Assembly (NCBI RefSeq): GCF_006716095.1 | Contig: NZ_VFOK01000001.1 | Location: 1,705,375-1,769,374, forward strand | Reading direction: 5' to 3' | From: Barrientosiimonas humi | GTDB lineage: Bacteria > Actinomycetota > Actinomycetes > Actinomycetales > Dermatophilaceae | Length of the DNA: 64,000 nucleotides | Shown: positions 20,604 through 33,493 of the stretch, one piece after another | Layout of the letters: each line of letters opens with the position of its first letter | Position numbering within the stretch: position 1 is the first letter of the stretch | Made by a program: the position numbers and the translations under genes | Notes under the pieces: generated by a model | Seen by the model: the letters and a program-made list of their open reading frames with translations, nothing else | What the model was told of the DNA's origin: nothing | The model's database searches: none

Positions 20604-21818
20604 TCACGATCCTCCCGCACGCGTCGGCCGCGGCGCAGGCGGGCGTCCGGTGACGGACGGGACGGACCGCCACAGCACCACCGCGGCCAGCAGCCCGATC
20701 ACCCCCGACGCCGCGATCGCGGCCCCGAGCGAGAGCAGCGCGGTGAAGCCCGACAGCAGCGCCGGGCCGCCGGTGGCGCCGATGTCGGACAGCTCGCGCC
20801 AGATGCCGAGGAACTGCGCCCGGCCCACCGGGGGCGAGAAGTCGGCGCCGAGGGTCATGACCATCCCCGAGCCGATGCCGTTGCCGAAGCCGAGCACGCA
20901 GGAGACGACGGTGAACGCGACGAGGCCGCTGGTGAGCGGCATCGCGAGCAGCGCCAGGCCCATGACGAGCATCGAGGGCACGGTGACCCAGCGCCGGCCG
21001 CGCACGTCCATGACCTTGCCGGCGGGGTAGAACACGAGCATGTCGATGCCGCCCGCGACGCCGTAGACGATCGACGCGGTCTGCGGGGACAGCCCCAGGT
21101 TCTCGGCCCACAGCGGGATGACGACCTGGCGCGAGGCGCGCACCGCGGCGACGAGCATGATGCCGACGCCGACCGTGAGGAAGGTCCGCCGGTGCTCGCT
21201 CAGCACGCCGCGCACCGTGACGGGGGTCGCCGCGGATCCCGTGCTGCGCGAGGGCAGCTCGGGCAGCAGCGCACCCACGAGCCCGGCGACGACGAGCGCG
21301 AGGCCGCAGACGACGTACGCACCCCGCAGGTCGGTGAGCTGGATCGCCGCCGCGCCGAGGAACGGCCCGACGAACACGCCCACGCGCATGACCCCGCCGA
21401 GGGTGGACAGCGCCCGCGCGCGGTAGTGCGCGGGGATCGCCTCGGTGAGGTAGCTCTGTCGGGCGAGCATGAAGACCGAGGCGCTGACCCCGAAGAGCAG
21501 CACGCCGGAGGCGAAGACGGCCAGGCTCGGCGCGAGCGCGCACAGCACCGAGGCGACCACGCCGAGCGCCGCCGCGCCGACGATGGCCCACCGCTCGCCG
21601 AACCGGTGGGTGATGACCGACGCCGGCACGTTGAACAGCAGCGACCCGACGTTGATGAGCATGACCACGGCCGCCGCCATCGGCACGCTGGCACCGAGGT
21701 CGCGCGCGGACAGGGCGACCACCGGGAGGATCGCGCCCTCGCCGAGGCCGAACAGCAGGCTCGGGCCGTACGCCGGGATCGCCAGCCGGCGCAGGTCGAC
21801 AGGGCGGTCGGTGGTCAC
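20604..21818 (-). CDS. MFS transporter
   Basis: A 404-residue major facilitator. About twelve hydrophobic segments are present, with the loop 2-3 signature degraded to ITHRFGERWAIVGA and a second half starting near FLTVGVGIMLVAAVRASRQVV. GTG 21818 is favoured over the TTG at 21827 because TAGGTT lies seven bases upstream of the GTG. The stop is one base from the glnA2 start, so transporter and glutamine synthetase are co-expressed. Position suggests an amino-acid, polyamine or drug substrate, but this is inference. The substrate is unknown. Confidence 0.88.
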   Translation of the reverse strand: MTTDRPVDLRRLAIPAYGPSLLFGLGEGAILPVVALSARDLGASVPMAAAVVMLINVGSLLFNVPASVITHRFGERWAIVGAAALGVVASVLCALAPSLAVFASGVLLFGVSASVFMLARQSYLTEAIPAHYRARALSTLGGVMRVGVFVGPFLGAAAIQLTDLRGAYVVCGLALVVAGLVGALLPELPSRSTGSAATPVTVRGVLSEHRRTFLTVGVGIMLVAAVRASRQVVIPLWAENLGLSPQTASIVYGVAGGIDMLVFYPAGKVMDVRGRRWVTVPSMLVMGLALLAMPLTSGLVAFTVVSCVLGFGNGIGSGMVMTLGADFSPPVGRAQFLGIWRELSDIGATGGPALLSGFTALLSLGAAIAASGVIGLLAAVVLWRSVPSVTGRPPAPRPTRAGGS

Positions 21819-21825
21819 CGTCGCC

Positions 21826-21831
21826 AACCTA
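21826..21831 (-). promoter_or_regulatory. -10-like element of the MFS-glnA2-glnE operon
   Basis: TAGGTT on the minus strand, seven bases ahead of the GTG at 21818. It decides the start choice for the MFS gene. Confidence 0.45.
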
Positions 21832-21863
21832 GCCAGCGGCGACGGGTGCCGATCAGCGGGGCG

Positions 21864-22736
21864 TCACAGCATCCGGCCGTGCACGTCCCAGCCCTCGGTG
21901 GGCACCCGGCTGAGCGCCTTCATCCGGCGGAAGCCGACCGCGTGCCCGGACATCAGGTTGGCGAAGCTCAGCCAGAAGCCGTCCTTGTGCCGGTCGACGG
22001 AGCGCAGGTAGGCGGGGACGTCGACCTGCCGCGCGACGTTCTTGCCGGCGAACAGGGCGACCATGTCCATCGCGTGCTGCGGGGCGTAGTAGGCCCCGAC
22101 CCGGTCGGCGGTGTACTCCTGCGCGCGGCTCAGGCTCGGGGCGAGCCGCAGCAGGGTGAGGACCGGCGTGATGCCCTGGCGCCACAGGTTCACGTGGCCG
22201 CACTTGATGTGCCCGAGCTCGTGGGCGAGCACGAAGCGCAGCGCGCCGGCGTTGCCGTGCACGTAGGCCAGGTCGGCGAGGTCGCTGTAGACCACGACGT
22301 AGCCGCGCTGCAGCTGGCACTTGGCGGCGAAGGCGTTCATCGTGCCGTTGCCGTTGACCATGTACAGCCGCGGGACCTGCGCCATCCGGCCCGGGCCCGC
22401 GCCGAAGCCCATCTGCCGGGCCAGGTCGGCGTAGATGGCCCACAGGTCGGGGAACTGCTCGTCGGTGACCTCGACCCCGTTGGCGATCTGCGTCCAGTAC
22501 ATCCACCGGATGTAGACGAGGCTGAGCACGGGCAGCGCGAGCCCGCCCAGCACGACGATCGACCACTGCGCGAGCTGCACGCCCGAGAGCAGCGCCCCGA
22601 CCGCGCCGATCGCCACGACGGCGGTGAGCCCCACGCCGAGGGCGAGCATCGGCACCTCGGCCCGGTGCCGCAGCTGCGGCACGGTCGGGCCGGTCTCGAC
22701 CGCCCGCGTCCGGTCGTCCTCGATGCGCACGGTCAT
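21864..22736 (-). CDS. M48 family membrane metalloprotease
   Basis: A 290-residue zinc protease of the M48 (HtpX/Oma1-like) family. Two membrane segments near the N-terminus (LALGVGLTAVVAIGAVGALL and IVVLGGLALPVLSLVYI) precede the catalytic domain. The active site HELGHIKCGH is intact (HEXXH), and the third zinc ligand is likely the Glu of SRAQEYTADRVGAYYA. Length is normal. It probably degrades misfolded or damaged membrane proteins at the cytoplasmic face. It stands alone between the MFS operon and a glycosyltransferase operon, both on the same strand. Confidence 0.88.
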   Translation of the reverse strand: MTVRIEDDRTRAVETGPTVPQLRHRAEVPMLALGVGLTAVVAIGAVGALLSGVQLAQWSIVVLGGLALPVLSLVYIRWMYWTQIANGVEVTDEQFPDLWAIYADLARQMGFGAGPGRMAQVPRLYMVNGNGTMNAFAAKCQLQRGYVVVYSDLADLAYVHGNAGALRFVLAHELGHIKCGHVNLWRQGITPVLTLLRLAPSLSRAQEYTADRVGAYYAPQHAMDMVALFAGKNVARQVDVPAYLRSVDRHKDGFWLSFANLMSGHAVGFRRMKALSRVPTEGWDVHGRML

Positions 22737-22753
22737 GGCGCCCCCTCTCGTCG

Positions 22754-22798
22754 ACGGCCGGCCCGGTCTGCGGCCGCACCTGTCGGCCGGCCGGCCGT
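22754..22798 (-). terminator. Hairpin ending the minus-strand glycosyltransferase operon
   Basis: ACGGCCGGCC (22754-22763) and GGCCGGCCGT (22789-22798) are perfect 10-bp arms around a 25-base loop, starting ten bases after the stop at 22808. It lies just before the M48 protease gene. Confidence 0.5.
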
Positions 22799-22807
22799 GG
22801 GCCAACG

Positions 22808-23650
22808 CTAGCGAGGGGTCTCGGCCAGCACCCACCGATTGCGCCCGGCGTCGAGCCGGACGGCTCCGAGGCGCTGCATCTCCAGCAGCCAGCCGAGCAT
22901 CGGGAACTCGCCCCAGCGCTCGTGGAAGAGGTTGGCGTTGCGCACGATCGACGCGGCGTGCTGCACCGGCGGGCGGCTCGTCGGGTGGTGCTGGTGGTAG
23001 GCGACCGCGCCCCCGACCCAGGTCATGCCGCCACCGAGCGCTCGCACCCGCCAGGCCAGGTCGGTGTCCTCGCCGCCGTAGCCGGTATAGGCCTCGTCGA
23101 AGCCGCCGACCTGCTGCCAGGACCCGCGGTCGATCGCGAACGACAGCGACCAGAACAGCCGCAGGTCGGCGCCGTGCACGACCTGGCCGGGCGCCGGGGC
23201 CGGTCGGGCCGGGTGCGGCCGGGAGCGGGCCAGGTCGGAGTCGTCGTACGCCGTCCGCCCCTCGGCGAGCGGGTCCAGGTAGTGCACGACGCCCGACCAC
23301 AGGTGCGCGCGCCGGGTGGGCCGGGCGACCTCGGCATAGCGCGCGAGCAGCTGCGGCGCGGGGAGGCAGTCGACGTCGAGCAGCACCACCACGTCGGCCC
23401 CGCGCTCGAGAACCGTTGCGGCGCCGAGGTTTCGGGCCGCCGCCAGCGGGAGCTCGCGGTCGGCGAGCGGCAGGTGCAAGGTGGTCGCCGAAGGGGCGCC
23501 CTCGACGACCACCTGCTCGACCTCGGGGTCGCCCATGGCGACGACGACGTGCGCGTCGGGCGGCTGCGCCTGCCGCCGCAGGTGCGCCAGCTGCGCGCGC
23601 AGGTGGCGGTGCCGGCCGTGCACCGTCGTCACGAGCCCGATGCGCGTCAC
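22808..23650 (-). CDS. Glycosyltransferase family 2 with galactosyltransferase-like C-terminus
   Basis: A 280-residue GT-A enzyme. It opens with IGLVTTVHGRHRHLRAQLAHL and carries the DXD metal site in VVLLDVDCLPAPQLL. The C-terminal acceptor motif VGGFDEAYTGYGGEDTDLAWR is the glyco_transf_7C pattern shared with galactosyl- and GalNAc-transferases. GTG 23650 overlaps the preceding gene's stop (4 bases). It is the last of four glycosyltransferase genes on this strand. The sugar donor and acceptor are unknown. Confidence 0.88.
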   Translation of the reverse strand: MTRIGLVTTVHGRHRHLRAQLAHLRRQAQPPDAHVVVAMGDPEVEQVVVEGAPSATTLHLPLADRELPLAAARNLGAATVLERGADVVVLLDVDCLPAPQLLARYAEVARPTRRAHLWSGVVHYLDPLAEGRTAYDDSDLARSRPHPARPAPAPGQVVHGADLRLFWSLSFAIDRGSWQQVGGFDEAYTGYGGEDTDLAWRVRALGGGMTWVGGAVAYHQHHPTSRPPVQHAASIVRNANLFHERWGEFPMLGWLLEMQRLGAVRLDAGRNRWVLAETPR

Positions 23651-24642
23651 GGCGCCGCCTCTCCGTGCGCGACCCGCTCGAGCACCTCGGCGGCCCGGGC
23701 TGCGCCGCGGCCGTCGTTCCACAGCAGCCACTTCTCGGCCGGGAGAGCCGTCGCGCGCGCCAGCAGGTCGGGCCAGTCGTGCGGCTGCGGCCAGTCGTCG
23801 AGGGCGACGGCGAGGTCGAGCGTGCGCAGCGCCGCCACCGTCGCCTGCTGCTCGTCGAACGGGCGGGGCTGGGCGATCACCACCGCGGGGCGCTGGGCGG
23901 CGGCCACCTCGGCCACGGCGTTCTGGCCAGCGTGGCAGACCACCACCGCGGCCTCCTGCAGCAGCCGCCACACCTCGTCGCCCGACCGCTCGTCGCGCGA
24001 CCCGTCGGCGAACACCCACCGCCAGCCCGGCGTCGCCTCGCGCGCCGCGCTCAGCTGCGCCGACGGCACCGGCCCGCCGCCGCCCCACAGGCACAGCACC
24101 GTCCGGCTGCCCGGGTCGGCCGACGCGACGGGCCGACCGTCGAAGCGGGACAGCGCCCCGACGTGCGCGGTGCGGGAGAGCACCTCGCGCGGCCACGGCT
24201 CGGGCGCGGCCGCGGGCCACGGGGCGACGAGCGCCTCGGCCACGTCGTAGGCCAGCCGGTGCGGCCGGTCGGACCGGTCGCCCCGCATGGCCATGACCAC
24301 CACCGGCACACCCAGCAGGCGGCCGAGCGCTGCAACCTCGGCGGAGACGTCGACGACCAGGGCGCGCGGGCGTACGTCGGTGACCCAGGTGGCGATGCGC
24401 TGCATCCGGTCGCGAAAACCGTTGTGTTGCAACGGTGCCCAGTGAAGCGCGCCGTACGCCGTCACGTCGCCGTCGGGGCGCGGCTGGTCGTCGCGCGGCA
24501 GCTGGAGCCAGGGGCCGGAGTGCTCCAGCGGGCGGGCCAGGCTGCTGATGCCGGTGACCGGCAGGTCGAGCGCGGCGGCGATGCTCAGCATCCGGTGCAG
24601 GTGCCCCGAGCCCTGGTGGTGCACGTAGTAGCCGATCACCAC
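23647..24642 (-). CDS. MurG/UGT-like glycosyltransferase (GT-B)
   Basis: A 331-residue GT-B enzyme. The N-terminal glycine-rich loop is YYVHHQGSGHLHRMLSIAAAL. The nucleotide-sugar-binding C-terminal half resembles Glyco_tran_28_C: VVVCHAGQNAVAEVAAAQRP, then IAQPRPFDEQQATVAAL. The start is one of two consecutive GTG codons (24642 or 24639), overlapping the upstream gene's end by seven bases. It has no signal peptide or membrane helix, so it should work in the cytoplasm. It is part of the divergent glycan cluster; its product is unknown. Confidence 0.85.
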   Translation of the reverse strand: MVIGYYVHHQGSGHLHRMLSIAAALDLPVTGISSLARPLEHSGPWLQLPRDDQPRPDGDVTAYGALHWAPLQHNGFRDRMQRIATWVTDVRPRALVVDVSAEVAALGRLLGVPVVVMAMRGDRSDRPHRLAYDVAEALVAPWPAAAPEPWPREVLSRTAHVGALSRFDGRPVASADPGSRTVLCLWGGGGPVPSAQLSAAREATPGWRWVFADGSRDERSGDEVWRLLQEAAVVVCHAGQNAVAEVAAAQRPAVVIAQPRPFDEQQATVAALRTLDLAVALDDWPQPHDWPDLLARATALPAEKWLLWNDGRGAARAAEVLERVAHGEAAP

Positions 24643-25703
24643 GCCACCCCCTGGACCACCCTGCGGTAGCAGCGCGCGTGCGACGCGGCGATGTCGCGCT
24701 GCTGGCTGCGGCGCTCACCCTCCGTGGCCTGCCGCCGCTCCTGCGACCGCGCGAGCCCGACCGCCGTGACCAGCTCGTCGACCGCCCGGTCGTCGGTGCC
24801 CTCCGGCCAGTGCAGCAACCGGTGCTGCTGGTGCCAGTAGCCCCGGTCGGAGGCCAGGACCGCGGTGCCGGTGTCGTACGCCGCCTCGACCCAGCCGGAG
24901 TGGCTGCCCCACGCGTAGGGCAGGGCCAGGGCGTCGGCGTCGTCGAGCCAGGCGCGCACCTGCTCCTCGGGCACCCGCCGCTGCAGCGCCTCCACCCGCC
25001 AGCCCGGCTGCTGCGACAGCCGGCAGACCTCCCGGGCGATCTGCCGGTCACGCTCGTCGCGGGGCGCCTGCACGACCGCGAGGTCGAGCACGACGGTGCG
25101 CACGAGCGGCCGGTCGGCCGGCCAGCGCTCGAGCAGCTCCAACGCCTGCAGCACGTGCAGGTTGGCGCGAGCGGCCCGCACGGGCAGCAGGATCCGCGGG
25201 TCGGCGTCGTCGTCGCGGACGGGGTCGCGGGACGGGCCGACGAGGTGCAGCGGGAGCTGGTGCGGGTGCGGCACGACCGTGGCGTGCCGGCCCCACCGGC
25301 GCCGGATCTCGGTGGCGGCCCCGGGGGTCAGGGTCAGCACCTCCCCCGCCGCGTCGGTCACGTCGGCGAGCAACGCGTGGTGCCGGTCCTGGGTGCGCAG
25401 GTGCGGGTTGTCGATGTCGTGGACGGTCACGACCAACGCGATGCCCGAGTCGGCCAACGCCCTGATCCAGCAACGCATCTCGGCGTCCGACAGATGCTCG
25501 TAACCGAAGTGCAGATGGATCACGTCGACGTCGTCGGCGTGCGCCCTGACCCACTCCGGCGACAGTGCCGGCGAGGGCGACCATCCCTGCGCCGGCCTCG
25601 GCTCGCGATCCGTGACGTGCTGCACCCCCCACTCGCCGATGCCGGTCATCACGTGCCGGACGTACGGGTGGTCACCGGGGACGTGGCAGACCCGCAGGCT
25701 CAC
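24636..25703 (-). CDS. GT-B glycosyltransferase
   Basis: A 355-residue glycosyltransferase with GT4-like layout. The N-terminal Rossmann half contains VCHVPGDHPYVRHV, VDVIHLHFGYEHLSD and VVTVHDIDNPHLRTQ. The C-terminal half has ILLPVRAARANLHVLQAL and the acceptor-binding region ALPYAWGSHSGWVEAAYDTG, where the Glu of the family's E-x7-E motif is placed in SGWVEAAYDTG. GTG 25703 overlaps the stop of the preceding GT4 gene (GTGA); the longer frame upstream is a shadow of that gene. Substrate unknown. Confidence 0.82.
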   Translation of the reverse strand: MSLRVCHVPGDHPYVRHVMTGIGEWGVQHVTDREPRPAQGWSPSPALSPEWVRAHADDVDVIHLHFGYEHLSDAEMRCWIRALADSGIALVVTVHDIDNPHLRTQDRHHALLADVTDAAGEVLTLTPGAATEIRRRWGRHATVVPHPHQLPLHLVGPSRDPVRDDDADPRILLPVRAARANLHVLQALELLERWPADRPLVRTVVLDLAVVQAPRDERDRQIAREVCRLSQQPGWRVEALQRRVPEEQVRAWLDDADALALPYAWGSHSGWVEAAYDTGTAVLASDRGYWHQQHRLLHWPEGTDDRAVDELVTAVGLARSQERRQATEGERRSQQRDIAASHARCYRRVVQGVAW

Positions 25704-26791
25704 GCGACGCTCGGGGTGCGCTGACGCACGAGGTGGGCGTACAGCTCGAGGTAGCGCGCGACCATCAGGTCCAGCGACAGGTGCTCCTCGGCGAACGCCC
25801 GCACCCGCGCCCGGGACAGTCGGGTGGCCTCGCGCAGCGCGCCGGAGAGCGCGTCGACGTCGCCGGGCCGCACGAGGCGCCCGACCGCGGGGTCGGTGAG
25901 GGTCTCGGCGATGCCGCCGCAGGCGTACGCCACGACCGGGGTGCCGCACGCCAGCGCCTCGGCGACGACCAGCCCGAACGGCTCCGGCCAGTGCGGCGTC
26001 ACGAGGGCCACCGCGGACCGGCCGACGAGCTCGGCGAGCGCCGGCGCAGCCAGGTGCCCGACGTACGTCGTGCGCGGGCCGAGGAGCGGACGGATCCGCT
26101 CGGCGAAGTAGACCGGGTCGTCGACCGGGCCGGCGAGCCGGATGGCCAGGCCCGCGCGGGCGGCCGCGTGGATCGCGTCGTGCGGCGCCTTCTCGGGCGT
26201 GATGCGACCGGACCAGACGACGTCGTCACCGCCCGGGCCGGGGCGCCACAGCCGCAGGTCGACGCCGTTGGGCACCACGCTCGGCGCGCGGTCCAGGCAC
26301 CAGCTATCAGCGGTCGCCCGGCTGACCGCGGTGACCTCGCCGGCGCGCGCGCCGGCGACCTCGAACGCCGACTCCATCCACGCGATGGGCGGGGTGTGCA
26401 GCGTCGTGACCAGCGGGCAGGGCAGCGTCTCGGCGAGGCTGATCGGGAGGTGGTGCAGGGAGTGGTTGTGCACCACGTCGACGTCGGCGCGGGCCAGCGC
26501 GGTCATCGCCCGCAGGTAGGCGTGGTGCTCGCGCAGGAACCCGGCGGGCGGGGCGTAGCGGTCGCCCAGCGCCAGGTCGGACGGGCTCCACCCGCCCCCG
26601 TCCAGCTCCAGGCCCGGCGTGAGGAAGTCCGAGCCCTCGGGCGCGACCACGAGGGTCTGCACCCCCTCGGCCCGCAGTCCCCGGGCGAGGTTCCAGACCA
26701 TCGCCTCCATGCCGCCGAGGAACGGCCGTCGCAGCGGGTGCCTCGACGGAGCTACCAGGGCTACCCGCAACGGACGACGCGTGATCGCCAT
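25700..26791 (-). CDS. Glycosyltransferase family 4
   Basis: A 363-residue GT4 enzyme, first gene of the minus-strand glycan operon. Visible: GGMEAMVWNLARGLRAEGVQ with donor-half contacts, TTLHTPPIAWMESAF, SVVPNGVDLRLWRPG, VVWSGRITPEKAPHDAI (the conserved G-R-x-x-x-E-K), and the catalytic EPFGLVVAEALACGTPVVA (E-x7-E). ATG 26791 gives MAITRRPLRVALVAPSRHP; an upstream extension lacks homology. It is divergent from a second glycan operon starting at 26967, sharing a 175-base promoter region. It is probably a mannosyl- or glucosyltransferase from family habit only. Confidence 0.9.
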   Translation of the reverse strand: MAITRRPLRVALVAPSRHPLRRPFLGGMEAMVWNLARGLRAEGVQTLVVAPEGSDFLTPGLELDGGGWSPSDLALGDRYAPPAGFLREHHAYLRAMTALARADVDVVHNHSLHHLPISLAETLPCPLVTTLHTPPIAWMESAFEVAGARAGEVTAVSRATADSWCLDRAPSVVPNGVDLRLWRPGPGGDDVVWSGRITPEKAPHDAIHAAARAGLAIRLAGPVDDPVYFAERIRPLLGPRTTYVGHLAAPALAELVGRSAVALVTPHWPEPFGLVVAEALACGTPVVAYACGGIAETLTDPAVGRLVRPGDVDALSGALREATRLSRARVRAFAEEHLSLDLMVARYLELYAHLVRQRTPSVA

Positions 26792-26868
26792 CTGATCTTC
26801 GACTCCTTCGTCTCCTCCGCCGGCGCACACCCACGCACCGGCCCACCTCGGTCAACGTACGGTCGCGG

Positions 26869-26911
26869 GGGCCCCCCTCCCCACACCCCCCCGGAGGTTT
26901 CTGGGGGGCCC
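26869..26911. promoter_or_regulatory. GC-rich inverted repeat in the divergent glycan promoter
   Basis: GGGCCCCCC (26869-26877) and GGGGGGCCC (26903-26911) are perfect 9-bp arms with a 25-base loop rich in C. It lies midway between the two divergent glycosyltransferase operons and could control both, or form an RNA hairpin. Function is inferred from position. Confidence 0.4.
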
Positions 26912-26953
26912 GAAAGCACCCGTGCGGGGGTAGTGACGTCGCCCCGTCTCTCC

Positions 26954-26959
26954 TAGCGT
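26954..26959 (+). promoter_or_regulatory. -10-like element of the plus-strand glycan operon
   Basis: TAGCGT, seven bases, then the ATG at 26967. Confidence 0.45.
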
Positions 26960-26966
26960 CGCAGGT

Positions 26967-27968
26967 ATGGCGCAGACACCGACGTATGTCGTCGTGGGCC
27001 CGCAGGAGCACGGCGTCACGCGCCACGCGCTGGCCCTGGCCGGCGCGGGCGACGCGGTCGTGCGCCGCCTGCCCGCCCACCCGACGGTGGACGCGCTGCT
27101 CGCTGCCGCCGACGGGGCCGGCGCGGTGCACCTGCACCTGACCGACCACCTGCTCGCGGGCTCGCCCGCCGCCGCGGCCGACCTCGTCGAGGCCCTCGCC
27201 GACCGGTGCCGCACCACGCTGACCCTGCACGACGTCCCCCAGCCCGCGGAGGGCGCCGAGCGGTACGCCCGCCGGGCGCGGGCATACGGGCGGATGCGGC
27301 GGGCCGCCGCCGTCTGCGTCGTCGCCAGCGAGCACGAGCGCGAGGCGCTGGAGCGCTGCGGGGACAGCGACACCCCGATCGAGGTCGTGCCGCTGCCGGT
27401 CGAGCGCAGCGTGCACCGGCCCGCCGGGGCGAGCGCCGAAACCCCTTTTGCCGTGGCGGTTCTCGGGTTCGTCTATCCCGGCAAGGGCCACCTCGACGTG
27501 CTCGCGGCGATGCGTGACCTGCCGGCCGAGGTCGGGCTCGACGTGCTGGGCGCGCCCTCCCCCGGCCACGACGGGCTGCTGGACGAGCTGGCCGCCGGGG
27601 CCGCCGAGCAGGGGCGCCGGCTGCGGGTCACCGGTTATGTCGACGACGCCGACCTCGCGGGCGAGCTGACCCGCCCCGTGGTGCCCGTCCTGGCCCACCG
27701 GCACGCGTCGGCGTCGGGCAGCGCCGCCACCTGGATCGGGCACGGCCGGCGGCCGGTGGCGCTCGACGGCGGCTACGCCCGCGAGCTCGCCGCGCGGTAC
27801 CCCTGGGCGGTGACCGTCGTCGACGACCTCGCCGCGGGGATGGCCGCCGCGCTGAGCGGCGAGGTGAGCACCTGGATCGACCCGGGCGACGGGCGTACGG
27901 CCGTCGTCGACACCGCCGAGGCGGCGCGCCTGGAGGCGCTGGCCGTCGGCGAACGGGCGCTGGCATGA
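26967..27968 (+). CDS. GT4-like glycosyltransferase
   Basis: A 333-residue GT-B protein, first gene of the plus-strand glycan operon. The N-terminal half is short and has AVHLHLTDHLLAGSP and LTLHDVPQPAEGAERYARR. The donor half contains IEVVPLPVERSVHRP, VAVLGFVYPGKGHLDVLAAM (G-x-x-x-x-x-K-G as in GT4) and LRVTGYVDDADLAGEL. The usual E-x7-E acceptor motif is not clearly present; instead SASGSAATWIGHGRRPVALD stands there. It may therefore be a divergent or inactive member. Cytoplasmic, no signal. Confidence 0.75.
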   Translation: MAQTPTYVVVGPQEHGVTRHALALAGAGDAVVRRLPAHPTVDALLAAADGAGAVHLHLTDHLLAGSPAAAADLVEALADRCRTTLTLHDVPQPAEGAERYARRARAYGRMRRAAAVCVVASEHEREALERCGDSDTPIEVVPLPVERSVHRPAGASAETPFAVAVLGFVYPGKGHLDVLAAMRDLPAEVGLDVLGAPSPGHDGLLDELAAGAAEQGRRLRVTGYVDDADLAGELTRPVVPVLAHRHASASGSAATWIGHGRRPVALDGGYARELAARYPWAVTVVDDLAAGMAAALSGEVSTWIDPGDGRTAVVDTAEAARLEALAVGERALA

Positions 27969-29194
27969 CCGGTCCCCGCGTGAGCGTCGTCGTCCCGCAC
28001 TACGACGACCCCCAGCGCCTGCGGTGGGTGCTGCAGGCCCTGGAGCAGCAGCGCGGCGCACCTCCGATCGACGTGGTGGTCGCCGACGACGGCTCGCCCG
28101 AGCCGCCCGCGCTGCCCGACGTGCGCCTGCCGGTGCGCCTGGTGCGCCAGGACCGCCAGGGGTTCCGCGCCGCCGCCGCCCGCAACCTCGGGGCGGCGAA
28201 CGCCTGCGGCGACCCGCTGATCTTCCTCGACGGCGACACGCTGCCCGCGCCCGGATTCGTGCGGGCGATGGTCGAGGCGATCGCCCGGCACGAGCGCGGG
28301 CACGGCGTGCTGGCCGTGGGGCGGCGTCGGCACGTGCGCCTCGAGGGGCTGGGCGACGCGCAGATCCTGCACCACCTGGTGCGCGAGCAGGTCCCGGCCG
28401 ACCGTGACCTCGGCAGCCCCGCCTGGCTCACCGGGGGCTACGCCCGCACCCGCAACCTGACCGCGGCCGGTCCCGAGGACTTCCGGCTGGTGATCAGCGC
28501 GGTGCTGGCCACCACCCGGGGACTGTTCGAGCGGATCGGCGGGTTCGACGCGTCGATGGTGGGGTACGGCGGCGAGGACTGGGACCTGGCGTTCCGCGCG
28601 TGGGTGGCCGGCGCCGACCTGGTGCACGCCCCCGACGCGGTCGCCTGGCACGACGGGCCCGACCTGGCCGGTCGCGGCTTCGACATCCGCGACCGCAAGA
28701 ACCTGGAGTCCCTCGCGCTCGCCGACCGGATCCCGCTGCGCTCGGCCCGCCCGCCGGGCGTGCACCACCCGGTGCCGCGGGTGCTGGTGACGCTGCGGCT
28801 CGGGCGCAGCGGAGCCGCCGCCGCGCTGACCTGCGTCGGGGAGCTGCTGCGCGGCGACGACGTCGGCGTCTGGCTCCTCGACCGCGACGAGGTGCCCGGC
28901 CCGCTCCGCCACGACCCGCGCGTGCACGCGGGCTCCCCGCCACCGGCGGCGCTGGCCCGATCGCCCCGACGGGTCGACCTGCGGCAGCCGCTGCTGCTCG
29001 GGCGCACCGTGGACCAGCTGACCGACCTGGAGGTGCCGAACCTGTTGTCCGCCAGGGACGCTCGCGATCTTGCCCGAGGAGTCACCCTGCCTCCCACTCC
29101 CCTGCCCGACGGCATGAGCGTGCTGCACGACGAGCCGTTCCTGGAGCGTCGCTGGGCCGTGGCGGAGGCCGAACGAGGAGCCGTGCCGTGCTGA
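27965..29194 (+). CDS. Glycosyltransferase family 2 with C-terminal extension
   Basis: A 409-residue enzyme whose first 260 residues are a complete GT-A domain: VSVVVPHYDDPQRLRWVLQAL, VVADDGSPEPPALPD, the metal site IFLDGDTLPAPGFVRAM and the C-terminal IGGFDASMVGYGGEDWDLAFR (glyco_transf_7C). The last 150 residues (from VLVTLRLGRSGAAAALTCVGELL) are unlike the core and may bind the acceptor or a partner. The start overlaps the previous stop (ATGA), and the stop overlaps the next gene's start by 7 bases. It is similar in design to the GT2 at 22808. Confidence 0.86.
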   Translation: MTGPRVSVVVPHYDDPQRLRWVLQALEQQRGAPPIDVVVADDGSPEPPALPDVRLPVRLVRQDRQGFRAAAARNLGAANACGDPLIFLDGDTLPAPGFVRAMVEAIARHERGHGVLAVGRRRHVRLEGLGDAQILHHLVREQVPADRDLGSPAWLTGGYARTRNLTAAGPEDFRLVISAVLATTRGLFERIGGFDASMVGYGGEDWDLAFRAWVAGADLVHAPDAVAWHDGPDLAGRGFDIRDRKNLESLALADRIPLRSARPPGVHHPVPRVLVTLRLGRSGAAAALTCVGELLRGDDVGVWLLDRDEVPGPLRHDPRVHAGSPPPAALARSPRRVDLRQPLLLGRTVDQLTDLEVPNLLSARDARDLARGVTLPPTPLPDGMSVLHDEPFLERRWAVAEAERGAVPC

Positions 29195-30255
29195 CCGACA
29201 CCACCACCGACGGGGCCCTGCTCGACCCGTCCGACGACCTCGTCGGCAGGGTCACCCGCTGGGCCGGGGAGGTTACCGAGCTCGACGACCCGGTGGGCGC
29301 GACCCTCGGCCAGCTGCCGGGGCTCGGCCGGGAGGCCCCACGACCGGGCTCGGGCGACACCCTGCGGCTGTTCGACCTGCTCTCGCGGGTGGCGGCGGTC
29401 GACCTGGTCGTCGCGCGCACGGTCGAGCCGCACCTGGACGCGCTGTCGATCCTCGACCAGGCCCCCGAACCCCCGAACCTCGACGCCATCGGTGTCGGGC
29501 CGAGCGCGACCTGGGGCGTCTTCGCGGCCGAGGGCCCGGGCGTGCGCGTCACCGCGACCCGGCGCGGCGACGGCTGGACCGTCAGCGGGCACAAGCCGTG
29601 GAGCTCCCTCGGTCGCCGGCTCACCCACGCGCTGGTCACCGCCTGGACCGGCGAGCGCACCCGCCGGTTGTTCGCCGTGCCGCTGCGCCACGAGGGCGTC
29701 GCGGTCGAGTCGAGCGACCGGTGGATCGCGCGCGGCATGGCCCTGATCCCCTCGGTCGGCATCGACCTGACCGACGTTCCGGCCGTCCCCGTCGGCGAGG
29801 ACGGGTGGTATCTCACGCGGCCCGGCTTCTGGTGGGGCGCGGTCGGGGTGGCGGCGTGCTGGTACGGCGGGGCCACCGCGGTCGCCGAGCTGCTGCACCC
29901 GCGCCCCGGCCGGGAGCCCGACCAGGTGGCCCTGATGCACCTCGGAGAGGCCGACACCGCGCTGTTCGCGGCGCGCACCGCCCTGCAGCACGCCGCGGCG
30001 CAGATCGACGCGAGCGGCCAGGGCGCCGCCGGCCGGTCCACCGAGCTGCTCGCCCGGCGGGTGCGCGGCCTGGTCCGCCAGGTCGGCGACGACGTGCTAG
30101 CCCGCACCTCCCGCGCGACCGGGCCCGGGCCGCTGGTCTCCCAGGAGCGGCACGCCCGCCGGGTCGCCGACCTGCACCTCTACCTGCGCCAGGAGCACGC
30201 CGAGCGGGACGCGGCCGCACTCGGTCAGGCGCTGCAGCAGGACGGTGCGTCATGA
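29188..30255 (+). CDS. Acyl-CoA-dehydrogenase-like flavoprotein in a glycan operon
   Basis: A 355-residue protein resembling acyl-CoA dehydrogenases. The middle beta domain is clear: VRVTATRRGDGWTVSGHKPWSSLGRRLTHALVTAWTG. The C-terminal helical part (ALMHLGEADTALFAARTAL onwards) matches the four-helix bundle. The N-terminal helical domain is shortened and I cannot place the usual catalytic glutamate. GTG 29188 is supported by AGGAG seven bases upstream. Set between glycosyltransferases and a PIG-L deacetylase, it may oxidise a sugar- or lipid-linked intermediate rather than a fatty acyl-CoA. That role is inference. Confidence 0.8.
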   Translation: MLTDTTTDGALLDPSDDLVGRVTRWAGEVTELDDPVGATLGQLPGLGREAPRPGSGDTLRLFDLLSRVAAVDLVVARTVEPHLDALSILDQAPEPPNLDAIGVGPSATWGVFAAEGPGVRVTATRRGDGWTVSGHKPWSSLGRRLTHALVTAWTGERTRRLFAVPLRHEGVAVESSDRWIARGMALIPSVGIDLTDVPAVPVGEDGWYLTRPGFWWGAVGVAACWYGGATAVAELLHPRPGREPDQVALMHLGEADTALFAARTALQHAAAQIDASGQGAAGRSTELLARRVRGLVRQVGDDVLARTSRATGPGPLVSQERHARRVADLHLYLRQEHAERDAAALGQALQQDGAS

Positions 30256-31571
30256 GCTTCCACCACGCGATGCGCGGCACGCCGGAGGCCGACTGGCTGA
30301 CGGCGCTCGAGGACCGTCCGCCACCCGCGTTCGAGCTGCAGCCGGGCACCCGGCTGCTCGTGGTCGTCGCGGCCCACCCCGACGACGAGACGCTCGGCGC
30401 GGGCGGGCTGATCGCGCACGCCCACGGCCGCGGCATCCCGGTCGAGGTGCTGGTGCTGTCCGACGGCGAGGCCTCGCACCCCGACTCCCCCACCCGCACC
30501 CCCGAGGAGCTCGCCGAGATCCGCCGGCGCGAGGTGGCGCACGCCGTGCACGCCCTCGCCCCCGACGTACGTCCTCGGCAGCCGGGCCTGCCCGACGGGC
30601 GCCTCGCCGAGCACGTCGACAGCGCGACCTCGCTGCTGCGCGAGATCGTCGGCGACGTCGGCGTGGGTGCCGTGCTGGCGGCCCCCTGGGAGGGCGACCG
30701 TCACCCCGACCACGAGGCGGCGGCGCAGGCGGCCGAGCGGGTCGCGCGCGAGACCGGGGCGCTGCTGCTGGAGTACCCCGTCTGGGCGTGGCACTGGGGC
30801 CGGCCGCAGGACCTGCCGTGGGACCGGCTGGTCGCCCTGCCGCTGACGGAGGCCGACCACGCGGCCAAGCGCACCGCGCTCGCCCGGCACCGCAGCCAGG
30901 TCGAGCCGCTGTCGGACGAACCCGGCGACGAGTTGCTGCTGAGCGCCGACATGCTGGGCCACTTCGACCGCGGCACAGAGGTTTTCGTCGATCCGGCGGG
31001 AGACGCCACCCGGCCCGTGCTGGAGCGGCTGCACCGCCGCTCGGCCGACCCGTGGGCGGTCGGCGCGAGCGCCTACGAGCACGACAAGCGCGCGGCGACG
31101 CTGGACGCGCTGCCCGCCGGGCGCACCTTCGAGCACGTGCTCGACGCGGGGTGCTCGATCGGCGCGCTGACCGCCGAGCTGGCCGCCCGCGCGCACCGGG
31201 TCACCGCCCTGGACCTGAGCGAGACCGCCGTGGCTGCCGCGCAGCGGCGCCTGGCGGGGCTGGCCCACGTGGACGTACGCACCGCGCGGCTCCCGCAGGA
31301 CTGGCCCGACGGGCGGTTCGACCTGGTGGTCGTCTCGGAGATCGCCTACTTCCTGTCGCCGGAGGAGCTCGACGGGCTCGCCGACCAGGCCCGCGCGGCG
31401 CTGGCGCCCGGCGGACTCGTGCTGGTGTGCAGCTGGCGGCACGAGGTCGACGGCTGGCCCTGGCCCGACGGTCAGGCGGCGCACGCGCACCTGGTGGCGG
31501 CGCTCGGGCTGGAGCCGACCCTGGAGCGCGCCGAGCGCGACTACCGACTCACGGTCCTGGAGGAACGATGA
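30252..31571 (+). CDS. PIG-L deacetylase fused to SAM methyltransferase
   Basis: A 439-residue fusion. Residues about 35-240 are a PIG-L/LmbE zinc deacetylase with AAHPDDETLGAGG (His42, Asp45) and the second motif GDRHPDHEAAAQ. Members remove acetyl groups from N-acetyl sugars such as GlcNAc-inositol. Residues about 270-439 are a class I methyltransferase with motif I LDAGCSIGALTAELA and a NodS-like DLVVVSEIAYFLSPEEL. The parts could deacetylate and then methylate the same amino sugar. The start overlaps the previous stop (ATGA) and its stop overlaps the next start. Located in the cytoplasm, no signal. Confidence 0.9.
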   Translation: MSFHHAMRGTPEADWLTALEDRPPPAFELQPGTRLLVVVAAHPDDETLGAGGLIAHAHGRGIPVEVLVLSDGEASHPDSPTRTPEELAEIRRREVAHAVHALAPDVRPRQPGLPDGRLAEHVDSATSLLREIVGDVGVGAVLAAPWEGDRHPDHEAAAQAAERVARETGALLLEYPVWAWHWGRPQDLPWDRLVALPLTEADHAAKRTALARHRSQVEPLSDEPGDELLLSADMLGHFDRGTEVFVDPAGDATRPVLERLHRRSADPWAVGASAYEHDKRAATLDALPAGRTFEHVLDAGCSIGALTAELAARAHRVTALDLSETAVAAAQRRLAGLAHVDVRTARLPQDWPDGRFDLVVVSEIAYFLSPEELDGLADQARAALAPGGLVLVCSWRHEVDGWPWPDGQAAHAHLVAALGLEPTLERAERDYRLTVLEER

Positions 31572-32449
31572 TCGAGCGACCCGTCATGGGTGTGGTGGTG
31601 CCGGCGCGCGACGAGGAGGCGCTGCTGCCCGAGTGCCTGGAGCACCTGCAGGTCGCCGTCGACGAGCTGCACCGGCGCACGCGCTGGCGCGCCCGCGCGG
31701 TGGTCGTGCTCGACTCGTGCACCGACGGCAGCGCCGGCGCCGTGGCCGCGGCGGCCGGCGTGGAGGCGTTGACGATCAGCGCCGGCAACGTCGGGCTCGC
31801 GCGGGCGGCCGGCGCCGACCACCTGCTGCGCACGGGCGTCGCGGTGTCGTGGCTCGCGTGCACCGACGCCGACTCGCGGGTGCCGCGCAGCTGGCTGTGC
31901 GACCAGGTCGAGGCGCACTCGCTCGGCATCGAGCTCGTGATGGGCAGCGTGCTGCCCGACGCGCGCTCGCTCACGCCGGCGCAGCTGGCCGCGTGGCTCG
32001 CGCGGCACGACCTGGGTGACGGCCACGAGCACGTGTTCGGGGCCAACCTCGGGATCAGCGCCCGCGCCTACGCCCACGTCGGCGGTTTCGCCCCGCTGCC
32101 GCTGCACGAGGACGTCGACCTGGTGCGGCGGGTGCGCGCGGCCGGCTTCGTCTGGCACGCGCGCGGCGGCGACCCGGTGATCACCAGTGCCCGCCGGGTC
32201 GGCCGGGCCGCCGGCGGCTTCGCGACCGACCTGCGGCTGCGCCTCGCCGAGCCGGTGCCGACGGACCGACCGGCGGCGCTGGGGGCCGATGCGCCGCCGG
32301 TGCCTGCTCCGGCGGGTGGGCCTCAGCCGTTGTCGGTGGTGCCGTCGGCGGAGCCGCCCTCCTCCCAGGCGCGGTCCTCCTCGTCCCAGGCCTCGGTGCG
32401 CCTGCGCGCGAGCTCCAGGGCCGACTCGGCCTCCTCGCGGGTCTCGTAG
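31568..32449 (+). CDS. Glycosyltransferase family 2; tail runs antisense over the next gene
   Basis: A 293-residue GT-A protein: MGVVVPARDEEALLPECLEHL, the metal site LACTDADSRVPRSWL, and an acceptor region HVGGFAPLPLHEDVDLVRRV. Homology ends near residue 235. The last 55 residues are Pro/Ser-rich and, over 127 bases, read antisense to the small SPOR-like gene at 32323-32529, so they are probably a run-on tail after loss of an earlier stop. The start overlaps the PIG-L fusion stop (ATGA). It is the last gene of the plus-strand glycan operon. Substrate unknown. Confidence 0.82.
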   Translation: MIERPVMGVVVPARDEEALLPECLEHLQVAVDELHRRTRWRARAVVVLDSCTDGSAGAVAAAAGVEALTISAGNVGLARAAGADHLLRTGVAVSWLACTDADSRVPRSWLCDQVEAHSLGIELVMGSVLPDARSLTPAQLAAWLARHDLGDGHEHVFGANLGISARAYAHVGGFAPLPLHEDVDLVRRVRAAGFVWHARGGDPVITSARRVGRAAGGFATDLRLRLAEPVPTDRPAALGADAPPVPAPAGGPQPLSVVPSAEPPSSQARSSSSQASVRLRASSRADSASSRVS

Positions 32450-32529
32450 GGACCCATCAGCTCGCCCTTGGGCTCGGTCTGACCGTCCTGCTCGACCTGA
32501 CCGGTCGAGACGTTGTACCAGTACGCCAT
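32323..32529 (-). CDS. Small SPOR-like protein
   Basis: A 68-residue acidic protein beginning [16 protein letters not shown], then [20 protein letters not shown]. The pattern G-P-Y-x-T-R-E-E-A-x-x-A-L matches the second half of SPOR domains, which bind bare glycan strands of peptidoglycan, but it is shorter than a full SPOR domain and has no membrane anchor. Similar small proteins sit divergent from map in other actinobacteria, as I recall. Start ATG 32529 lies 103 bases from the map start. Its 3' part is overlapped on the other strand by a glycosyltransferase tail. Role unknown. Confidence 0.8.
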
Positions 32530-32619
32530 CGTCGGCTCCTCCTGTGCGCGTCGTGCTGCGTGCGCTCACGCACGCCCTCTTTCGCCCACTCTATGGGTGG
32601 CCGGTGACAGCGCCCCTCA

Positions 32620-32625
32620 TACACT
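32620..32625 (+). promoter_or_regulatory. -10-like element of map
   Basis: TACACT, seven bases, ATG at 32633. No ribosome binding site is seen. Confidence 0.5.
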
Positions 32626-32632
32626 CGGGCGC

Positions 32633-33493
32633 ATGTCCCAGACCACGGCTGTGCGTCCCGGCCGCGTCGCACCGCGACGCCCTGTGCCCTCGGCCATCGC
32701 CCGCCCGGAGTACGTCGACCGCACCTCTCCCGCCCCGTGGACCGGGCCGGAGGTCAAGGACGCCGGCACCATCGAGCGGATGCGCGTCGCGGGGCGCATC
32801 GCCGCCCAGGCGCTGCAGGCCGCGGGCGCGGCCGTCTCGCCGGGCGTCACCACCGACGAGCTGGACCGGGTCGGCCACGAGTTCCTGCTCGACCACGGCG
32901 CCTACCCCTCGACCCTGGGCTACCGCGGGTTCCCCAAGTCGCTGTGCACCTCGGTCAACGAGGTCATCTGCCACGGCATCCCCGACGACCGCCCGCTGCA
33001 GGACGGAGACATCGTCAAGATCGACATCACCGCCTTCGTCGACGGCGTGCACGGCGACAACTGCGCCACCTTCCTCGTCGGTGAGGTCGCCCCCGAGGTG
33101 CGCGACCTGGTCACCCGCACCGAGGAGGCGATGCACCGCGGCATCAAGGCCGCCCTCCCCGGCCGCGAGGTCAACGTCATCGGGCGGGTCATCGAGCGCT
33201 ACGCCCGCCGGTTCGGCTACGGCGTGGTGCGCGACTACACCGGCCACGGCATCGGCGAGACGTTCCACTCCGGCCTGGTCATCCCGCACTACGACGCCGC
33301 CCCGGCGCACGCCGACGTCATCGAGCCGGGCATGACCTTCACCGTCGAGCCGATGCTCGACCTCGGCACCCCCGACTGGATCATGTGGGACGACGAGTGG
33401 ACCGTTGTCACCGCCGACGGCAGCTGGTCGGCACAGTTCGAGAACACCATCCTGATCACCGAGTCGGGCCCTGAGATCCTCACCCGGCCGTAG
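32633..33493 (+). CDS. map: Type I methionine aminopeptidase
   Basis: A 286-residue metalloprotease removing the initiator methionine. The five metal ligands are present: Asp in [12 protein letters not shown], Asp in [13 protein letters not shown], His in [13 protein letters not shown], Glu in [10 protein letters not shown] and Glu in [11 protein letters not shown]. The substrate His is in [14 protein letters not shown] 40-residue N-terminal extension with a Pro-rich segment ([15 protein letters not shown]) resembles the actinobacterial MetAP1c form, which binds the ribosome through such a linker. The start follows a -10-like TACACT by seven bases. It is followed by ppgK on the same strand. 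Confidence 0.96.

Follow-up and report, generated by a model that had tools for sequence, protein, structure and literature searches.

A conserved three-gene unit for putative amino-sugar modification and a separable block of six glycosyltransferases in Barrientosiimonas humi

Introduction

In the mycothiol and bacillithiol pathways (MshA/BshA, MshB/BshB and a ligase), a glycosyltransferase acts first and a PIG-L/LmbE deacetylase then acts on a small glycoside. The Nod-factor core (NodC, NodB and NodS) unites a GT2 glycosyltransferase, an N-deacetylase and a methyltransferase, NodS, which N-methylates deacetylated glucosamine. Sugar N-oxygenases such as KijD3, DnmZ and nitrososynthase have the acyl-CoA dehydrogenase (ACAD) fold. 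In Acinetobacter baumannii, genes ACICU_02432-02435 are listed, in the passages available, as a glycosyltransferase, an S-adenosylmethionine (SAM) methyltransferase, LmbE and an acyl-CoA dehydrogenase-related protein (PMC5660220). The locus considered here lies in a stretch of 64,000 nucleotides from Barrientosiimonas humi (contig NZ_VFOK01000001.1, positions 1,705,375 to 1,769,374; hereafter the window) and comprises nine genes, a to i (Table 1). Three of these, coding for an ACAD-fold flavoprotein (g), a PIG-L deacetylase fused to a NodS-like methyltransferase (h) and a small GT2 glycosyltransferase (i), form one conserved unit, while the six glycosyltransferases a-f are a second, separable unit that has repeatedly settled beside g-h-i in some actinobacteria.

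By membership tests against curated sequence models, g-h-i resembles the logic of both Nod-factor and mycothiol/bacillithiol synthesis and belongs to neither. As in the Nod-factor core, a GT2, an N-deacetylase and a NodS-type methyltransferase stand together, but the deacetylase is of the PIG-L type and a flavoprotein is added; none of the nine proteins matches a NodA-, NodB- or NodC-type Pfam model, and i has no NodC match in NCBIfam. The unit shares with mycothiol and bacillithiol synthesis the sequence of a glycosyltransferase and then a PIG-L/LmbE enzyme that deacetylates a small glycoside, whereas the glycosyltransferase of the core unit is a GT2 and not a GT4, no cysteine ligase is present among the nine, and methylation and flavin oxidation are added. 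The A. baumannii genes, as far as they are described, have the same four functions in the same order, although deacetylase and methyltransferase are separate genes there.

Conservation and distribution of g-h-i

A profile of h was run over named genomes; of the 228 loci confirmed, the best 80 were retained (hereafter the named loci) and the nine proteins then located in them by tblastn. All three genes are present in 78 of the 80, and 77 loci have them on the same strand in the order g-h-i; in L120 the first gene is i, and L138 and L155, both at contig ends, are each short of one gene. In a sample of 296 genomes from the phylum, the thresholds were E<=1e-25 for g and E<=1e-30 for h or either of its halves. 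The flavoprotein gene was found in 36 genomes, h or a half of it in 41, and both in 35 (about 12% of the sample), with the two lying within 4 kb of each other in every one of the 35. The unit recurs in Actinomycetota, Deinococcus and Proteobacteria. Plasmid searches gave 43 matches, and at all eight loci inspected (Acinetobacter soli, two Deinococcus, the actinobacterium Kitasatospora, Bradyrhizobium, Komagataeibacter, Paracoccus and Legionella lytica) genes for an ACAD-family protein, a PIG-L protein, a methyltransferase and a GT2 occur together, as judged by annotation or tblastn. At a threshold of 1e-5, tblastn detected g in five of the eight and i in five; the others were assigned by annotation or Pfam. 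The preliminary description of this locus regarded deacetylation, methylation and flavin oxidation next to sugar transfer as an unusual combination. The combination is not rare: it is that of g-h-i, a widespread unit of three genes that has its own GT2.

In the D. radiodurans isolate DRR11 (L166:11291-15354), a DEAD/DEAH helicase gene separates the PIG-L gene from the methyltransferase gene, and the annotation of the stretch examined includes no GT2. A contig labelled Stenotrophomonas maltophilia P13 (L163) carries an actinobacterial-like g-h-i with a fused h (38% identity), which may reflect contamination or transfer.

Association of a-f with g-h-i

The preliminary description treated the nine genes as one cluster. 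As a single pathway this was rejected: a-f and g-h-i each occur alone. Among 58 genomes, the window's own and those of relatives, c was found in 20, h in 22 and b in 17, every one of which also has c; 15 genomes have both c and h. In nine of these 15, the window's genome included, c lies within 10 kb of h, against roughly 0.08 expected by chance, while in the other six they are not that close; the scattering in relatives that the preliminary description named as speaking against its reading is thus seen in six of the 15. In the phylum sample, g is present in 13 of 18 c-positive genomes and in 23 of the 278 others. Among the named loci, genes a-f are nearby at three (L133, L151 from Nostocoides sp. 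Soil756, and L155), none of a-f lies within 10 kb on either side (less at contig ends) at the other 77, and a complete g-h-i without a-f nearby, seen at 76 of 80, is the commoner form. The co-occurrence that the preliminary description proposed to look for is thus strong within g-h-i and moderate between a-f and g-h-i.

The arrangement of the two units varies among relatives. All nine genes are together in three (L036, L043 and L049); in five (L034, L046, L047, L048 and L050), a-c-d adjoins g-h-i while b, e and f are missing from the stretch; and a-f occur together without g-h-i in, for example, L072, L075, L076, L077 and L079. Genes a-c-d and b-e-f therefore look like two sub-blocks. In coordinate order, the genes read a-c-d-g-h-i in L047, g-h-i-a-c-d in L050 and e-f-b-d-c-a-i-h-g in L043. 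Repeated re-association in differing orders and strands is a stronger sign of shared function than a single inherited cluster would be. The two operons could nevertheless be unrelated chance neighbours with separate functions, as would suit the seven genomes with h and no c, the five with c and no h, and the 77 named loci at which a-f are missing. Set against this are the nine genomes in which c and h are close, in differing orders and strands, and the overlaps of 4-7 bases that run through e-f-g-h-i in the window; we consider chance neighbourhood somewhat unlikely, though well worth keeping in mind.

A gene of the WcbI family (PF18588) stands beside a-f or g-h-i in several relatives, as tested with Pfam in L049, L052 and L079 and read by eye in L071, L072 and L080. 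WcbI is absent from the window, the sole match in the window's genome lying 1.6 Mb away (C1:3310724), and it has no match in the named loci at E 1e-8. Two further kinds of genes recur in the loci of relatives: zinc alcohol dehydrogenase genes (L034 and six others) and genes for LuxR-type regulators (L034 and four others), one of each having been tested with Pfam.

Properties of the glycosyltransferases

Seven glycosyltransferases are present, as the preliminary description listed in its reasoning, although its title counted six. Up to E 0.01, protein b matches no family in Pfam or NCBIfam and, by sequence, nothing in the PDB. Its predicted model, of moderate confidence (pLDDT 65.5, built on three sequences), matches GT4/GT-B enzymes, among them BshA, MshA and PimA, and G266, H268, S269, G270 and E273 are kept in all 14 sequences compared; the model supports the earlier label of GT-B fold and no more. 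The label MurG-like also holds for c, which passes Glyco_tran_28_C and has MurG, EspG2 and CalG as solved relatives. It was rejected as MurG itself (23.4 bits against an equivalog cut-off of 250.25). Protein a is far below the curated cut-offs for BshA (44.7 against 273.7 bits) and MshA (40.4 against 462.5 bits), and f is far below that for NodC (15.6 against 550 bits). The TDAD and ED motifs of i occur in 20 of 20 sequences. The tail of i (32258-32449, plus strand) has no counterpart in 19 aligned homologues and shows an altered codon-position GC pattern, as if the natural stop or frame had been lost.

No flippase, polymerase or initiating transferase of the Wzx/Wzy or ABC type was found among the nine genes or the seven flanking proteins, which include one MFS protein, and the Pfam and NCBIfam tables name none of the nine as a polymerase, flippase or sugar-nucleotide enzyme, in agreement with the preliminary description. 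None of the nine proteins shows a clear membrane segment in a hydropathy scan; averaged over 19 residues, hydropathy peaks at 1.74 in c and 1.62 in a, which is marginal (the usual threshold for a membrane segment is 1.6). Since flippase, polymerase, initiating transferase and clear membrane protein are all missing, a small glycoconjugate is plausible as the product, and the earlier preference for it over a polysaccharide is consistent with these results.

A rival reading holds that the genes modify a polymer of the cell surface (a capsule, a teichoic acid-like glycan or a glycoprotein) and not a small molecule. Seven glycosyltransferases would fit such a role, as would the resemblance of f and d to chondroitin synthase (E 7e-40 and 1.4e-13, respectively) and the presence beside a-f, in some relatives, of WcbI, which Pfam names a polysaccharide biosynthesis enzyme. 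However, the nine include no clear membrane protein, no polymerase or ligase is named among them or the flanking seven (the MFS protein apart), and g-h-i mostly occurs without a-f nearby. A surface polymer is, on balance, distinctly unlikely.

The fused enzyme h

Both halves of h exceed their Pfam cut-offs (Table 1). The zinc motif of the deacetylase half (AHPDDE...HxDH) is intact, with H42, D44, D45, D149, H151 and H154 invariant in 20 of 20 sequences. In searches with the h profile, the nearest solved protein to this half is TT1542 (4.8e-20), followed by diacetylchitobiose deacetylase (4.9e-17), BshB (2.7e-12) and MshB (3.4e-11). The top solved relative of the methyltransferase half is 4isc (1.6e-60), a methyltransferase without a stated function; the nearest with named functions are NodS (3ofj, 5.4e-28) and phosphoethanolamine N-methyltransferases (4.7e-17). 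NodS is also the best Pfam model of this half, a point that the preliminary description, which had recognized the fusion correctly, did not mention. Orthology is a different matter: h falls far short of the NCBIfam equivalog cut-offs for NodS (63 against 300 bits), BshB2 (50.1 against 195.25), BshB1 (48 against 182.5) and MshB (22.2 against 224.35), and was rejected as an ortholog of any of them. Because a PIG-L half and a NodS-like half are fused, the natural reading is that an amine would be freed and then methylated by one enzyme.

A comparison with an anti-phage library gave a single partial match (3.6e-19), to the model mad2, confined to the methyltransferase half of h (31002-31460, plus strand). 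It was judged to reflect a shared methyltransferase domain and was set aside.

The flavoprotein g

The AlphaFold2 model of g (pLDDT 93.7) has a fold of the ACAD/DszC/KijD3 type across approximately 330 of 355 residues (Z 30-32 in a fold search). Two features speak against a true acyl-CoA dehydrogenase, and g was rejected as one: the score for the Pfam ACAD middle domain (30.5 bits) is below the cut-off of 33.3, and the catalytic Glu is not conserved. Among 76 sequences, no Glu is invariant in the C-terminal segment 328-341, and position 336 is occupied by H in 60, D in 6, W in 4, Q in 3, E in 2 and Y in 1. Other residues are kept strictly: R77, E80 and D84 are invariant (76/76), H82 occurs in 74 of 76, Y332 and Q335 are invariant and H337 nearly so. 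This pattern suggests an active site unlike that of the dehydrogenases, and the lack of a conserved Glu together with the distinct invariant residues favours oxidation of an amino sugar over acyl-CoA dehydrogenation.

The ACAD-fold sugar N-oxygenases share the fold with g, and such an enzyme would act on the amine freed by h. In fold searches, g matches KijD3 (4kcf) with Z 30.6 and E 7.4e-13, although identity to the sugar N-oxygenases is about 20%. A profile of 24 g sequences matches 5z8t, KijD3, ACADs, DszC and DnmZ between 6e-9 and 5e-5 (KijD3 at 2.3e-8), while in a deeper profile of 76 sequences 5gj7/5z8t come first. Both searches are headed, alone or in a tie, by 5z8t, which is named a flavin-containing monooxygenase. 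Oxidation of an amino sugar, possibly by N-oxygenation, is the favoured role for g, with neither fold nor sequence deciding.

A true acyl-chain dehydrogenase would make sense if the product were an N-acylated or lipid-linked glycan, either Nod-factor-like or a glycolipid, that g desaturates. The ACAD fold extends over nearly the full length of g, the dehydrogenases ColB1, CarC and 2dvl directly follow 5gj7/5z8t in the deeper profile, a NodS-like methyltransferase is present, and glucosamine-containing lipids are known PIG-L substrates. Against such a product, no acyltransferase is named among the nine, g has no conserved Glu in its C-terminal segment, and WcbI, which we take to be a possible acyl-transfer protein, is found neither in the window nor at the named loci. 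We judge a lipid-linked product clearly improbable and prefer oxidation of an amino sugar by g.

In two Deinococcus loci (L032:6794-9043 and L026:6540-8888), a domain of 400 amino acids is fused to the N-terminus of the ACAD-family protein. This domain has no Pfam family, is unrelated to the window's proteins by BLAST and hhalign, and, among the loci compared by tblastn, was found just in the two Deinococcus loci themselves; its best match in the PDB is a beta-glycosidase (E 0.17). Some other plasmid records annotate it as beta-glucosidase, and in further ones a domain of this type sits inside proteins annotated as glycosyltransferases. These glycan annotations tie the ACAD-family gene to glycans.

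Stress-related neighbours and the Acinetobacter operon

A catalase gene lies within 10 kb of h in six of the 22 h-positive genomes, where catalase copy number and genome size would predict 0.14. Catalase matches are present in 17 of the 22. On plasmids, trehalose genes adjoin the unit at three of the eight loci (L025, L030 and L031, from Acinetobacter soli, Paracoccus and Legionella lytica, respectively), and a catalase gene in Paracoccus and a spore photoproduct lyase gene in Kitasatospora are also near. Long catalase genes recur near g-h-i or a-f in L036, L040, L046, L049, L050, L051 and L082.

DNA from A. baumannii 2021CK-01407 (NZ_CP104448.1, L165) carries homologues of g, of both halves of h and of i in the same order (31-37% identity), and no match to a-f in the stretch with this quartet. 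Since gene order and annotation agree, the quartet is equated with ACICU_02432-02435; the ACICU sequence itself does not enter the comparison. Expression of ACICU_02432-02435 is down 31-62-fold in two colistin-dependent A. baumannii mutants, in which a catalase, the trehalose-6-phosphate synthase and phosphatase and numerous hypothetical genes fall as well (PMC5660220). Genes of this kind are reported next to BLUF photoreceptor genes in A. baumannii and A. nosocomialis, in passages that give no function (PMC9020721, PMC6240043), and the passages of a study on desiccation and BfmR that match the search terms do not mention the operon (PMC6181384). NZ_CP104448.1 is listed as a plasmid and, at 4.09 Mb, is the size of a chromosome; by our own reading, a BLUF-like open reading frame (ORF) lies beyond the quartet.

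The locus might also be a secondary-metabolite cluster for an antibiotic that bears an amino sugar. The sugars of antibiotics can be N-methylated and can undergo KijD3-type N-oxidation, and g matches KijD3. Yet the unit, a single copy in the window's genome, is spread over many genera and several phyla, its neighbours are of a stress type, and no scaffold-building or resistance gene is found among the nine, so that an antibiotic cluster is very unlikely.

Proposed pathway

The results above show the existence and conservation of the unit, its motifs, its fold and its linkage to a-f, and co-regulation in A. baumannii is reported in PMC5660220. The reactions, their substrates, their order and the product that we infer are as follows. 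The metal-dependent GT2 i would use a nucleotide sugar to place an N-acetylhexosamine (HexNAc) on a soluble acceptor. Its N-acetyl group would be removed by the PIG-L half of h, and the amine thus freed would be N-methylated by the NodS-like half. Flavoprotein g, lacking the dehydrogenase Glu, may oxidise the amino sugar; its target could be the nitrogen, as in sugar N-oxygenases of the KijD3 type. The six soluble glycosyltransferases a-f would then probably extend the product to a small hetero-oligosaccharide conjugate, joined in some relatives by the WcbI-family protein. The product probably serves survival under stress or in stationary phase. That g-h-i is a conserved cytosolic, stress-linked unit for amino-sugar modification, whose product a-f extend in this lineage, has in our estimate an even chance of being right.

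Several observations weigh against this proposal. Its statistics treat related genomes as independent, ignoring shared ancestry, and the phylum searches scored five to seven candidates per genome, so misses are possible. Three ACAD-family genes on plasmids (L026, L029 and L030) were assigned from annotation only. Ten of the 22 h-positive genomes lack b and seven lack c, which makes a-f dispensable for g-h-i. Five of the 22 have no catalase match at the threshold used, the window's genome is not among the six with a catalase near h (its catalases are at C1:1700411 and 3109667), and none of the seven flanking proteins scanned in the window is encoded by a catalase or trehalose gene. Colistin-dependent mutants bear on the matter only indirectly, and the genes co-regulated there are mostly hypothetical. 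For g, the register of the catalytic Glu (336) was set by hand, since profile alignments end short of the site, and fold scores are alike for dehydrogenases, DszC/TdsC and KijD3. In the 76-sequence profile KijD3 is not listed up to E 0.001 and DnmZ is the last of 25 matches (4.3e-4); this loss of KijD3 weakens the sequence support for N-oxygenase chemistry, which is not robust.

No name or product for g-h-i was found in the full-text literature searched, a search that papers using other gene names could escape and that covered neither subscription journals nor supplements; nor was a pathway name found there for the whole set, as the preliminary description had supposed. In its most specific form, the proposal would make g-h-i an undescribed multi-phylum pathway whose product is a soluble hexosamine glycoside with an N-methyl group and an oxidised (hydroxylamine- or nitrone-like) nitrogen. 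This compound would protect cells during drying or in stationary phase, as a nitrogen-redox counterpart of mycothiol and bacillithiol, and a-f would extend it to an oligosaccharide in some actinobacteria. The chances of this full form are slim, the more so as the deeper profile of g does not list KijD3. The unit joins Nod-like N-methylation, PIG-L deacetylation and an ACAD-fold oxidase, it is also found on plasmids of Deinococcus, Acinetobacter and Bradyrhizobium, among others, and its catalase and trehalose neighbours point to stress survival. If the product were found, many genes annotated just as 'PIG-L', 'acyl-CoA dehydrogenase' or 'SAM methyltransferase' would gain a role, and a component of dry or stationary-phase survival would become testable.

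Layout of the locus

The nine genes form two operons that run outward (22808-26791, minus strand, a-d, read from 26791 down to 22808; and 26967-32449, plus strand, e-i). All ORFs and junctions given in the preliminary description were confirmed. Neighbouring genes overlap by 4 (a/b), 7 (b/c), 4 (c/d), 4 (e/f), 7 (f/g), 4 (g/h) and 4 (h/i) bases, and all nine ORFs are free of internal stops, with GC3 of 0.94-0.97. The window has a GC content of about 73%, and the host genome (G000) measures 3.65 Mb.

Table 1. Genes of the two operons and the region between them (positions in the window).
Feature	Positions	Strand	Length (aa)	Evidence
a, GT4 glycosyltransferase	25700..26791	-	363	Pfam Glyco_transf_4 and Glycos_transf_1, both above cut-off
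b, GT-B fold glycosyltransferase, no Pfam family	24636..25703	-	355	predicted model
c, MurG-like GT28-type glycosyltransferase	23647..24642	-	331	Glyco_tran_28_C, 30.2 bits (cut-off 22)
d, GT2 glycosyltransferase	22808..23650	-	280	Glyco_transf_7C and Glyco_tranf_2_2
promoter region, putative (gap between operons)	26792..26966			layout
e, GT4-like protein	26967..27968	+	333	Glyco_transf_4, 27.7 bits, slightly below cut-off of 28.5
f, GT2 glycosyltransferase with C-terminal extension	27965..29194	+	409	Glycos_transf_2, 59.7 bits
g, ACAD-fold flavoprotein without conserved catalytic Glu; GTG start at 29188	29188..30255	+	355	fold; flavin binding inferred from fold
h, PIG-L deacetylase fused to NodS-like methyltransferase	30252..31571	+	439	PIG-L, 85.4 bits (cut-off 28.2); NodS, 62.7 bits (cut-off 24)
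i, small GT2 with invariant TDAD and ED motifs; last ~60 residues probably extraneous	31568..32449	+		Glycos_transf_2, 26.2 bits (cut-off 23.3)

The preliminary description had both operons start from a shared promoter. The divergent layout stands, and it is solely from this layout that a shared promoter is suggested, because a consensus scan of 22600-32700 returned no sigma-70-type promoter; it returned no intrinsic terminator either. The seven flanking proteins scanned are a glutamine synthetase, the MFS protein and an M48 peptidase on one side, and an M24 peptidase, a ROK-family protein, a FemAB protein and a metallo-beta-lactamase-fold protein on the other. The MFS transporter and M48 peptidase genes (20604-22736, minus strand) follow d on the same strand, with 71 bases between d and the M48 gene; they could be co-transcribed with d, and the MFS protein could export a product.

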